A DNA stretch of 64,000 nucleotides from a bacterium (GTDB lineage: Bacteria; SZUA-182; DTGQ01). Location of the stretch: the NCBI GenBank assembly GCA_040755755.1, contig JBFLZW010000050.1:34112-98111 (forward strand). The letters run 5' to 3'. This document shows positions 30,781 to 57,608 of this stretch, in pieces (positions within the stretch are counted from its first letter, which is position 1; each line of letters begins with the position of its first letter). The notes beneath the pieces were generated by a model. That model was not told the DNA's origin. It was given only the letters and a program-made list of their open reading frames with translations, and did no database searches. The translations under genes were made by a program, and so were the position numbers.

Positions 30781-31148
30781 ACTGTCCTCCTTCTCTCCTG
30801 AGCCCTTAGCTTTGTTTCTTCCCGGATCATCAAAGCGAATTTTTATACTCCGGCTCTCAGACTCATGCCTCACCTGCTCACATTCTCATATGCTCATATT
30901 TCAGGGTGAATATCGTATGCTGAATCTATCTCGTCTGGAAACGTCGGGAAAGAGGTGTCTCAACACTGTACTCCAGGACCAAGGGGGGAGATTGAGCGAT
31001 GTCATGGGGTCCATATTCAGGCTATCCTGGTGGGATGTTCGTATCAGATTGAAATGCGCTTACCCGCGAATTTAACCTTTTAATCTTTACAAATCTGGTA
31101 TTATAGCATATATTGAGGGAAATGGAAAGGTAAACGAAAAAGACAGAA
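30781..31148. other. Intergenic region upstream of the Nudix gene
   Basis: This stretch of about 370 bp between the divergent Nudix and receiver genes shows no gene-like frame. The part at 31070-31130 is AT-rich and may hold a promoter. A dispersed repeat copy follows at once. Confidence 0.3.
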
Positions 31149-52483: not shown

Positions 52484-52612
52484 TTCTCATACTCTCCTTC
52501 GTGCAGATAGGTCTGATTTCGGTACTGGTACCGGTTCCCGGTTTCCAGAACAGCTTACATTTCGTTCCCGATATTCTCTTGTTGCAGATAGGTCTGGTTT
52601 CGATACCGGTCC
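52461..52612. repeat. 81-82-bp tandem duplication spanning the nrdD end and the redoxin start
   Basis: The segments starting at 52461 and 52543 share TTCCAGAA(T/C)AGCTTA, ATTTC(A/G)TT and TGCAGATAGGTCTG at the same spacing (81-82 bp), with about 80 percent identity. The duplication repeated the 3' tail of nrdD and the 5' end of the redoxin gene. In the extra copy the redoxin start reads ATG followed at once by TAA, so it is a dead duplicate between the two genes. Confidence 0.7.
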
Positions 52613-54648
52613 CGGAGCTCTCCCCGTTTGCCCTTGTTCCAACTGGAAACCTTGGTGAAGTAGCCGGTAATCCGGGTGATCCCATCGACCTGGGCTGATC
52701 CGCAGTACGGGCAGGATTCTTTCAGTCCCCTGGACGTCTGGTTGCAGTTGTTGCAGGTCGTGAATTCCGGAGAGAAGGCAATCTGGTCATTGAGGGTCTT
52801 GCGGAAGGTCTTGACCACGAAATTGGCCAGAGACTCGCGGGATGGCTTGGCTTCACCCAGCCAGACATGGGTCAGAGCTCCTGCCTCGATCAGCGGGTGG
52901 AACAGGCCTTCCTGCCTGACCCGCTCGATGGGGTTGATCTGGGCGCTGACATTCAGGTAGCTGGAGTTGGTGTAGTATACTTCTCCTTTGGCCGCATCCC
53001 CCTGGACAATACTCTCTGCCTGGGGTCCATAGTGGCGGATATCGAGCTTGGCGAACCGGTAGCTGGTGCTTTCCGCAGGGGTCTGCTCGAGCACGAAATG
53101 CATTTTATGCTTGCTGGACAGCCGGTCAGCCAGAAGCTTCAAATGGGAAATAACTTTCAGCCCCAGCTTGAAGGCTTCTTTTGATTCATGCATTTCCTGG
53201 CCGGTCTGAACCTTTACCAGCTCGTTCAGCCCGACCATGCCGATCAGATGCGAGGCGCGGTCCAGGCGAAGATAGGGCTGCCCGTCCCGGCTCATGGTCA
53301 GGAGGGAGAGCGGGCCGCTCTCTCCGAGAGCCAGGAGCTTTTCGATAAAAACCCGCTTTTGCATATGGGCCTCGGCAGCCAGCTCCATCAGATCACTCAG
53401 CCGCTCGAAGAGCCTGCTGGCATCTCCCCTGGCCTCATAACCAACCCGGGGCAGGTTCAAGGTGATATTCTGCAGGGCGCAGTATCGCATCTTCCAGGGC
53501 TCTTTGGCATCTTCCAGGTCTTCGGCCCTGAGCTTGAAGCTCAGCCGGCAGCATTCGGAAATTTTGGCCGTATCCCCCCGGTCAAAAACAAAGTAGGTGT
53601 TCCCCTTTTCCACAGCCACTTCACAGATATGGTGGAGGAAATCCTGATGGCCCGGAGTCTTGAAAAATTTCTCGGTGATATGAACCAGCGGCTTGGGGAA
53701 GAAGAAGGGCCTGCCTGAGCCGTCTCCTTCCATATAGACATCGAAAAGCGCCCGGGCAAATCTTTGCGACTCTTCCAGATACTGGCCGTAGGTCTTTCCG
53801 GTATAAGTCCCGCCGGGTCCGATGGCCGGAACATTCTCGAAGTGATTGGGAACTTCCCAATAGATATTGATATCACTGAAAATCGCCTGTCCTCCCCTGG
53901 CCACTGCCTGCTGGGAGAACTCGAAAATCATGATCTGGGCCAACTGGCGGACATCCCGGTCCGACATGCCCGAAAGGTACGGGGCAAAGAAGAGGTTAAC
54001 CGCATCCCAGCCGATGGCCCCGGCAAAATTTCCCTGCAGGGCGGCGGCAAACTTCACCATGTGAGCCAGCAGCACTTCCGGATGTTTGGCCGGTTTGGCC
54101 ATGGAGAGAGCATTCGGCAGGTTCAGGCCGAATTTCTTGACATACTCCAGGGACTGGCCGGAGCAGTAAGGGCGGTCACAAAAGCCAAGATCGTGAATAT
54201 GGATATCTCCCCGCATGTGAGCATCGGACACCTCCTGCGAAAAGAGCGCCAGAAGGGCATACTCCTTCTTGATATGCTCGGCCAGGGTCAGGTTGGTGGC
54301 CTCCGGGCCATGCGGTACATTGGCATTTTCCTTGTTTGGATGCAAAATGAGCTGATTGACATCATAGAGCGGCATCCCAAGCCGGGTGTGCATCCAGCGG
54401 GCCCGCTCCAGGCCGTGCTCGATAAGCTTTGCATCCACCAGCTCCCGGATCAGGGGGGCGGTGATGATTTTGAGATTTGAGGCAATAATCTGACTCTCTA
54501 CTTCCTTACTGATGCGGATAGCCGTATCCTCATCAATATAGGTTTCGCGCACCAGGGCCTCGACAATTTTCTGCCGATCCCAACTCCGAAAATCCTCTTC
54601 CGAGGTTCGAACAAAAAGGGCCATATCCGTAGTTTCCAAGGTATTCAT
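52555..54648 (-). CDS. nrdD: Anaerobic ribonucleoside-triphosphate reductase, class III
   Basis: It reduces NTPs to dNTPs without oxygen. The 697 residues include an N-terminal ATP-cone regulatory domain (about 8-100: FVRTSEEDFRSWDRQKIVEAL). The catalytic barrel has DIHIHDLGFCDRPYCSGQSLE. The C-terminal zinc site is CNNCNQTSRGLKESCPYCGS. The glycyl radical site is Gly662 in TRITGYFTKVSSWNKG. ATG 54648 is chosen with AGGAG 8 bp upstream; the open frame begins at 54723. Downstream come the redoxin and nrdG. The tail beyond RDRYRNQ is part of a tandem duplication. An NrdR-like box lies upstream. Confidence 0.96.
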   Translation of the reverse strand: MNTLETTDMALFVRTSEEDFRSWDRQKIVEALVRETYIDEDTAIRISKEVESQIIASNLKIITAPLIRELVDAKLIEHGLERARWMHTRLGMPLYDVNQLILHPNKENANVPHGPEATNLTLAEHIKKEYALLALFSQEVSDAHMRGDIHIHDLGFCDRPYCSGQSLEYVKKFGLNLPNALSMAKPAKHPEVLLAHMVKFAAALQGNFAGAIGWDAVNLFFAPYLSGMSDRDVRQLAQIMIFEFSQQAVARGGQAIFSDINIYWEVPNHFENVPAIGPGGTYTGKTYGQYLEESQRFARALFDVYMEGDGSGRPFFFPKPLVHITEKFFKTPGHQDFLHHICEVAVEKGNTYFVFDRGDTAKISECCRLSFKLRAEDLEDAKEPWKMRYCALQNITLNLPRVGYEARGDASRLFERLSDLMELAAEAHMQKRVFIEKLLALGESGPLSLLTMSRDGQPYLRLDRASHLIGMVGLNELVKVQTGQEMHESKEAFKLGLKVISHLKLLADRLSSKHKMHFVLEQTPAESTSYRFAKLDIRHYGPQAESIVQGDAAKGEVYYTNSSYLNVSAQINPIERVRQEGLFHPLIEAGALTHVWLGEAKPSRESLANFVVKTFRKTLNDQIAFSPEFTTCNNCNQTSRGLKESCPYCGSAQVDGITRITGYFTKVSSWNKGKRGELRDRYRNQTYLQQENIGNEM

Positions 54649-54760
54649 CCTCAAATCTCCTAACCTGATTATACTCGATTCCGTGATGTATTCAAGCCGG
54701 ACTCTTCGGCATCGGTATTTCAATCACGGGTAGATCATATTGTGTATGTTCTCAAGGACA

Positions 54761-54776
54761 ACACTATATATAGTAT
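54761..54776. promoter_or_regulatory. NrdR-box-like palindrome upstream of nrdD
   Basis: ACACTATATATAGTAT closely matches the NrdR box consensus ACACWATATATWGTGT; the core ACTATATATAGT is a perfect palindrome. It lies 113 bp upstream of the nrdD start. A second AT palindrome, ATATCATGATAT, occurs at 54799-54810, with centres 36 bp apart. That is somewhat longer than the usual 31-32 bp between paired boxes, so only the first site is called. Confidence 0.45.
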
Positions 54777-54879
54777 CAGAATATGACCGTATCATACAAT
54801 ATCATGATATCGTGTCAAGCAAGTTACAGAGTTTATGCCTCAGAATCGCGGAATCGTCAGAAAACTGAAAATCCCCCTG

Positions 54880-55700
54880 AGAACAACCTGTGGATAAATT
54901 TTCCTCCTTGTGCCCTGAGCTTTCGAAAGCGGTTTGCTGACACGGCACTCCTTCTATAACTTGTTGAAATATAAAGCGATGCAAGCAGCCTCAATTCAGA
55001 GCATAATCGCTATCGCCGCTGTTTTTCCGCAGCTTTTCCCTGCTGACCTTCCACTTTATCCACAGCTTATCCATAACTTTTGTGGAAAGTCTTCCTAATG
55101 CGTGGCAAAATCACTTCTTTTCCTCCTCCCTCAAGGGTATCTCTTACTCCCTTTCCGGAAATCCCTGACCGGCGTCTGATCCTCGCTGATGGCCGGACCA
55201 CTGCGGACCACTGTGGATAACTTCCTGGTGCCCGCTTTTCATTTTGAAGGCGAGTCCGCCAGGCAATCCCCAGCTCTATAACTAGCTGAAATATCAAACA
55301 AACAAGCGAGCATTAATTTAGAGCGAAATTGCTATCTCCGCCCGTTTCTCAGGCAGTTTCAGCCGATTATTGGCCGGTTATCCACAGGTTATCCATATAA
55401 ATTGTGGAAACTGTTCCTAACAGTTCGCTAATATTACCTCTTTTTTATCTGTCCGAATTTCCGGTTCCCACCTCCTGATGAAAACCGGCTGTGGATAACA
55501 TCAGTTTTTCTCACGGTGCTCATGAATATCTTCCGTCACCAGAGAGGGCTTTGGGCTTAACTGGCTGAAAAGACTGCTAAAATTTATACGCCCCAGTCTG
55601 GTGCAGGTTTTCGATCCCGCTTCATTTTTCAGGTAGTTCTGTGGCCGGATTTCCAGTTTATCCCCAATTTATCCAGAAGCTTATCAAGGATTTCATTAAA
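54880..55700. other. Three diverged repeats with phased DnaA boxes: candidate replication origin or DnaA-binding locus
   Basis: Three units begin near 54880, 55203 and 55481. Each has TGTGGATAA (54889-54897, 55212-55220, 55490-55498). A TTATCCAC-type box follows 166-168 bp later: 55056-55064 and 55378-55386 perfect TTATCCACA, 55658-55666 TTATCCCCA. A second box follows exactly 11 bp later: TTATCCATA at 55067 and 55389, TTATCCAGA at 55669. Between them each unit has a related ACT(T/A/G)G(T/C)TGAAA segment. Five boxes match the DnaA consensus exactly. The region is gene-free and lies between minus-strand nrdD and a long run of plus-strand genes. No dnaA, dnaN or rpmH is nearby, so origin function is an inference. 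Confidence 0.6.
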
Positions 55701-55799: not shown

Positions 55800-57125
<1,326 letters not shown>

Positions 57126-57192: not shown

Positions 57193-57235
57193 AGTCGATG
57201 TATATACGTTCTGCTTTACGCTAAGGTTGCAGGAC

Positions 57236-57608
57236 ATGACAAAAGCGATCGAAGGATACACACAACTATTGAAGAATATCCGGGAGCGGATCCGGTCGGC
57301 GCAGTACGAGGCTTTATGCGCTGTCAACAAGGAGGTGGTGGCCCTATACTGGGACATTGGCCGGATAATCTCGGAACAAAAACAGGACCAGGGCTGGAGA
57401 AAGTCCCTCGTACAGGGGCTTGCCGACGATTTGCAGCAAGAATTCCCAGGGATAAAAGGTTTTTCTGCATCCAACCTTTGGCGGATGAAGTCGTTTTACG
57501 AGGCATATTCCCCCAATGAAAAACTTGCACCACTGGTTGCGAGAAATCGGCTGGTCTCATAATCTTATCATCCTGGAGCGATGTAATGACTTATTGGAAG
57601 CGGCATGA
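57236..57608 (+). pseudogene. Truncated, frameshifted DUF1016 (YhcG-type) N-terminal fragment
   Basis: From ATG 57236 the frame gives YTQLLKNIRERIRSAQYEAL, AVNKEVVALYWDIGRIISEQ and FSASNLWRMKSFYEAY, the DUF1016 N-terminal domain. At about 57540 the frame shifts: the other frame continues the family with REIGWSHNLIILERCNDLLEAA and stops at 57606-57608. The PD-(D/E)XK nuclease half that should follow is absent. The piece is therefore a remnant of a roughly 350-codon gene. Confidence 0.75.

Follow-up and report, generated by a model that had tools for sequence, protein, structure and literature searches.

What is the role of an array of DnaA boxes that recurs in three copies between nrdD and eno? 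The stretch of DNA analysed (the window, 64,000 nucleotides) covers positions 34112-98111 of contig C50 in a genome of 5.26 Mb in 88 unordered contigs (G000), and the original prediction took the array for a candidate chromosomal origin. Judged from sequence, the repeated units are very likely DnaA/IHF control elements of the DARS/datA kind (titration included) and not an origin, and on balance we favour DARS2-like DnaA reactivation, by three tandem copies, as their main act.

The array is flanked on the left by nrdD, encoding the anaerobic ribonucleotide reductase (52555..54723, minus strand; PF13597, E 2.1e-147), and on the right by eno, encoding enolase (55824..57125, plus strand; PF00113, E 8.2e-135), both genes being outside the element. 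Unit 1 extends over positions 54889-55089, unit 2 over 55212-55411 and unit 3 over 55490-55677. Each unit starts with a distal box A on the minus strand, which corresponds to box V of E. coli DARS2 and is a perfect TTATCCACA in unit 1 (54889..54897) and a perfect DnaA box in units 2 (55212..55220) and 3 (55490..55498). The predicted repeat spacing of 323 and 278 bp was confirmed by these starts (TGTGGATAA at 54889, 55212 and 55490), as was the presence of a TTATCCACA-type box 166-168 bp further on (at 55056, 55378 and 55658, that is 167, 166 and 168 bp) and of a second box exactly 11 bp after it (at 55067, 55389 and 55669). The first of these two, box B or core box III, is a perfect DnaA box on the plus strand in units 1 (55056..55064) and 2 (55378..55386), and the second, box C or core box II, reads TTATCCATA on the same strand in both units (55067..55075, with one mismatch, and 55389..55397). 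In unit 3, boxes B and C (55658..55677, plus strand) have one mismatch each (TTATCCCCA and TTATCCAGA). The array contains the five perfect boxes that had been counted (54889, 55056, 55212, 55378 and 55490) and a decayed third unit.

Two further components had been overlooked. A fourth box, D or core box I (TGTGGAAA), lies on the minus strand and starts 14 bp past the start of the second box. It reads TGTGGAAAG in unit 1 (55081..55089), head-to-head with box C across a 5-bp gap, and TGTGGAAAC in unit 2 (55403..55411); in unit 3 it is lost and positions 55683-55691 read ATCAAGGAT. The other component is a predicted IHF-type site on the plus strand of each unit, TAACTTGTTGAAA at 54957..54969 in unit 1, with 8 of the 9 informative positions of TAAnnnnTTGATW, and at the fixed offset TAACTAGCTGAAA at 55279..55291 in unit 2 and TAACTGGCTGAAA at 55558..55570 in unit 3. 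Counted from the start of box A (TGTGGATAA) as zero, the IHF-type site (TAANNNNYTGAWA) is found at +66 to +68 and box B at +164 to +168, followed by C at 11 bp and, on the opposite strand, by D at 14 bp past C. In 9 of 9 units the IHF-type site kept the same offset and gave 69 of 81 matches, compared to at most 55 in 1000 shuffles, none of which reached it; box A (TGTGGATA) was invariant across the nine units of alignment A1. Two blocks between the IHF-type site and box B, GCAAAATTGCTAT and TTTTTCAGGTAGTT, were conserved in alignments A1/A2, and the latter is perhaps a second, inverted IHF-type site. Two of the units have a diverged body of 67 nt in common. DnaA boxes with at most one mismatch numbered 34 in the window for 12.07 expected, a count reached in 0 of 100 shuffles. 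Of the five HU/IHF proteins that the genome encodes, the best-scoring models mark three as IHF-alpha-like, one as IHF-beta-like and one as HU-like; the IHF-alpha/beta-like proteins score under the NCBIfam equivalog cut-offs, the best ones by 1-4 bits. A search of the genome with PF00308 revealed no Hda-like protein, apart from two weak matches that by eye resemble IstB/DnaC-type ATPases.

The same arrangement was found in relatives, the named ones being uncultured metagenome-assembled genomes. The order nrdD-array-eno is kept in five genomes (G000-G004) that represent two families of one order, with two units at this site in G001 and one each in G002, G003 and G004. Of the 9 genomes of the phylum, 6 had the box-IHF-box pattern, compared to 2 of 377 other genomes, and a reversed control pattern was found nowhere. 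Profile R1, a sequence-only profile of nine units built from G000-G004 alone, without any E. coli sequence, detected units with the fixed geometry in 8 of the 9 phylum genomes, mostly with two to five matches per genome; unit 3 scored 104.7 bits, being itself among the sequences used to build the profile. Since the spacing is kept across relatives, chance can be excluded. The alternative that had been named, a site for DnaA titration or DnaA reactivation with its spacing under selection, is the one supported by the evidence, and of the two functions reactivation is favoured. The three-box core with box I opposite to II and III is present in units 1 and 2 and in most relatives, and in the more distant G005-G007 box D matches TTATCCACA perfectly or with one mismatch; these three genomes have additional IHF-type sites at +39 and, inverted, near +135. 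Box I is gone in unit 3 and in the eno-side units of G002 and G004, with box A, the IHF-type site and B-C retained. Copies outside the array are dispersed and lie beside hypCD, a menaquinone gene, a homocysteine gene, cytidylate kinase/epimerase, gltX and a flavin reductase gene, and the comparison of these copies showed no neighbouring gene in common. In two phylum genomes (G006 and G007; L176 and L177) a second DnaA-like open reading frame of about 400 residues is present besides dnaA, with 43-44% identity over residues 112-344.

The E. coli DARS core consists of three boxes whose spacing is equal in DARS1 and DARS2; box I points against II and III, and the head-to-head contact between I and II drives the release of ADP (PMC5742627; PMC8682772). 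Read on the other strand, the window core has the order I(+), 5 bp, II(-), 2 bp, III(-), compared to gaps of 5 and 3 bp in DARS1 and DARS2. In detail, unit 1 reads CTTTCCACA-5-TATGGATAA-2-TGTGGATAA, DARS1 TTATCCACT-5-TGTGGATAA-3-TGTGTATTA and DARS2 TTATTCACC-5-TGTGGATAG-3-TGTGAAGAA. A scan for this core geometry, allowing at most four mismatches, retrieved DARS1, DARS2 and window units 1 and 2, with two mismatches in all for the core of unit 1. Nothing was retrieved in datA, oriC, the dnaA and nrdA loci or a 200 kb E. coli control that contains 14 TTWTNCACA boxes. In 213.6 kb of E. coli DNA, R1 matched DARS1 (E 4.7e-4) and, weakly, datA (E 0.012), and nothing else, the 200 kb control included. 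R2, the same profile widened with more copies from the same phylum, matched DARS1 (E 3e-5) and, over the full length from box V to the core, DARS2 (E 2.3e-4), with weak matches to a second DARS2-side site (E 0.044) and to datA (E 0.063) and none in the 200 kb control; the match to DARS2 was obtained with R2 only, and posterior support is low in the middle part of its alignment.

Beyond the core, DARS2 (rppH-mutH region, NC_000913 about 2969135-2969355) resembles the window units in that its IHF sites lie in the spacer separating the core from a distal consensus box (V), which is oriented as box A. It differs in the II-III gap of 3 bp instead of 2 bp, in the distance of box V from box III (185 bp, compared to 164-168 bp for box A), in the positions of its IHF sites, in its known Fis sites (FBS2-3) and in being single, whereas the window element is triplicated. 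Fis is reported to be confined to the E. coli-related gamma-proteobacteria (PMC4245941). DARS1 (bioD-uvrB) has the core geometry and, at -99 from box III, an IHF-like TAACCAGTTAAAA, which is the offset of the window units; however, a distal box is absent from the expected place, and IHF action is not known there. In this respect DARS1 resembles short copies such as the one at C1:164374 of G000 more than it does the window units, and such core-only copies without a distal box resemble short versions of the DARS1 type.

We therefore favour DARS-like reactivation, as the orientation of the core and the 5-bp gap between I and II are those of DARS1 and DARS2 and are the defining trait in the literature. 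To this DARS-type core the units add an IHF-type bend site, at a distance of about 99 bp, and a strong distal box A, at 164-168 bp, and they are probably bound by both DnaA and IHF. ADP-DnaA would assemble on the three-box core, where head-to-head contact of the AAA+ domains of the molecules bound to I and II would loosen ADP, and bending of the spacer by IHF would bring the distal box near the core. The released apo-DnaA could then take up ATP, and the rise in ATP-DnaA would help to time initiation at a separate oriC beside dnaA. Tandem copies may provide a higher dosage in addition to DnaA binding. Counted against DARS are the II-III gap of 2 bp instead of 3 bp, the position of the IHF-type site relative to the flanking boxes, which is nearer to datA than to DARS2, and the loss of box I with the rest kept, which would be odd if box I were essential. 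The sub-cut-off scores of the IHF-like proteins and the restriction of the DARS2 match to R2 also weigh against it.

Outside the phylum, 35 of the 232 genomes had R2 matches with an E-value of 0.001 or lower, these E-values being rough. Three of the loci (L262, L270 and L278) have the full geometry, with box A without mismatch at -165/-166, the IHF-type site with at most one mismatch at -98/-99 and two to three mismatches in all in the core. Among 17 outside loci tested, in most of which the stretch that the genome scan had matched does not include box A, box A was enriched at the predicted offset (Fisher p 0.0013 in an after-the-fact test). At least seven of the loci read (L263, L268, L271, L275, L276, L280 and L281) do not have the geometry or resemble plain box clusters. 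The genes scanned around five outside loci included neither dnaA nor dnaN, and one locus (L264) adjoins an Hda-like gene. One tentative, and rather unlikely, reading is that one ancestral element, with an IHF site 67 bp from a distal box and 99 bp from a three-box DARS core, exists in several bacterial phyla and that DARS1, DARS2 and datA are its rearranged descendants; in DARS1 the core would then survive together with a cryptic IHF-like site at -99, in DARS2 both ends, and in datA the box-IHF-box distances. DARS-like sequences have been described in the literature as conserved in many proteobacteria, and datA and DARS as absent from B. subtilis. An element that combines the DARS core with the IHF spacing of datA, that occurs throughout a phylum both in tandem and at dispersed sites and that has look-alikes of equal geometry in unrelated genomes would, if true, make DnaA recharging an older and broader layer of control and suggests that this replication-timing layer is more widespread than in the E. 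coli-centred picture. The evolutionary relation between datA and DARS would also become testable.

The main rival to DARS-like reactivation is datA-like inactivation or titration, because the IHF spacing matches datA. In E. coli datA (glyY-queG) the distances are 65 bp from box 2 to the IHF site and 97 bp from there to box 3, compared to 67-68 and 99-100 bp in the window units, and the IHF site has the same orientation; from this spacing the units were at first taken for datA only, a reading that was revised once the core geometry was seen. ATP-DnaA oligomers on IHF-bent DNA would hydrolyse ATP and lower initiation, with titration as a side effect, and the weak R1 match to datA mentioned above and the units that lack box I and yet retain box A, the IHF-type site and B-C are in line with this. 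However, the essential datA boxes are reported to be all in one direction (PMC5742627), and boxes 2 and 3 of datA are oriented alike, but in the window units box A runs against B and C. There is furthermore no head-to-head 5-bp core in datA, and its R2 score is well below those of DARS1 and DARS2. We consider a datA-like function unlikely.

Pure titration, in which strong boxes soak up DnaA and spacing is irrelevant, is less probable still. DnaA-box clusters outside the origin restrain initiation in B. subtilis and Streptomyces according to the literature, and by description these clusters can be set beside the window units. Five perfect boxes within 610 bp, in tandem copies, and the over-representation of TTATCCACA in the whole genome (69 occurrences, compared to 20 for the reversed control pattern) would suit such a role. 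Titration alone, however, needs neither fixed spacings nor an IHF-type site nor a fixed head-to-head pair, all of which are kept over families, and B. subtilis differs in being a host without IHF according to the literature.

An operator for nrdD and/or eno, by which DnaA would tie nucleotide supply to replication, is an improbable explanation. E. coli nrdAB is regulated by DnaA, the array lies between the two genes in all five genomes mentioned above, and NrdR-like palindromes are close by. This reading is weakened because further copies adjoin unrelated genes (hypCD, menaquinone, homocysteine synthesis, gltX and flavin reductase), and the E. coli nrdA region was not matched by the profile. 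Among NrdD relatives of other lineages, nearly all are without such an array beside nrdD. The palindrome at window positions 54741-54790, by the nrdD promoter, reads ATATTGTGTATG...ACACTATATATAGTAT, is NrdR-box-like and has similar counterparts in G001-G003; such palindromes had been overlooked as well. Directly downstream of eno, at window positions 57227-57562, lies an open reading frame with a DUF1016_N domain.

The origin itself is probably located elsewhere, in the intergenic region between dnaA and gyrB at C55:141900-142150 (L170 2840-3090), at a switch in GC skew. The single dnaA gene (C55:140561-141895) is on another contig than the array and has DnaA boxes directly upstream of its start codon; three more box-like sequences follow towards gyrB, then ATATCCACA and then CTATTACTACTATCAATATTATTATTAATTA, a region that on the other strand forms a run of TAG/TAA triplets, DnaA-trio-like, before gyrB. 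Judged by eye, the arrangement is similar in G001-G003. Measured over 9 kb on each side, GC skew jumped by 0.13, 0.24, 0.26 and 0.25 at dnaA in four genomes, with a change of sign, compared to jumps at the array of 0.05 in G000, 0.10 in G001 and 0.04 in G002. Although dense perfect boxes and an IHF-type site are features of E. coli oriC too, the array is almost certainly not the predicted chromosomal origin, because the dnaA-gyrB region carries boxes, a trio-like run and the skew switch, because the array has no strong switch in three genomes and because each genome has several dispersed copies. With boxes, trio-like run and skew switch at dnaA on another contig, the origin prediction does not survive the refuting test proposed with it. 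The strongest local GC-skew switch of the array contig is at about window position 31000, away from the array. In a genome of an unrelated lineage (G010), dense inverted perfect DnaA boxes with 11-bp spacing were observed at L084 1436-1700, and this array is probably an origin of that 1.2 Mb genome.
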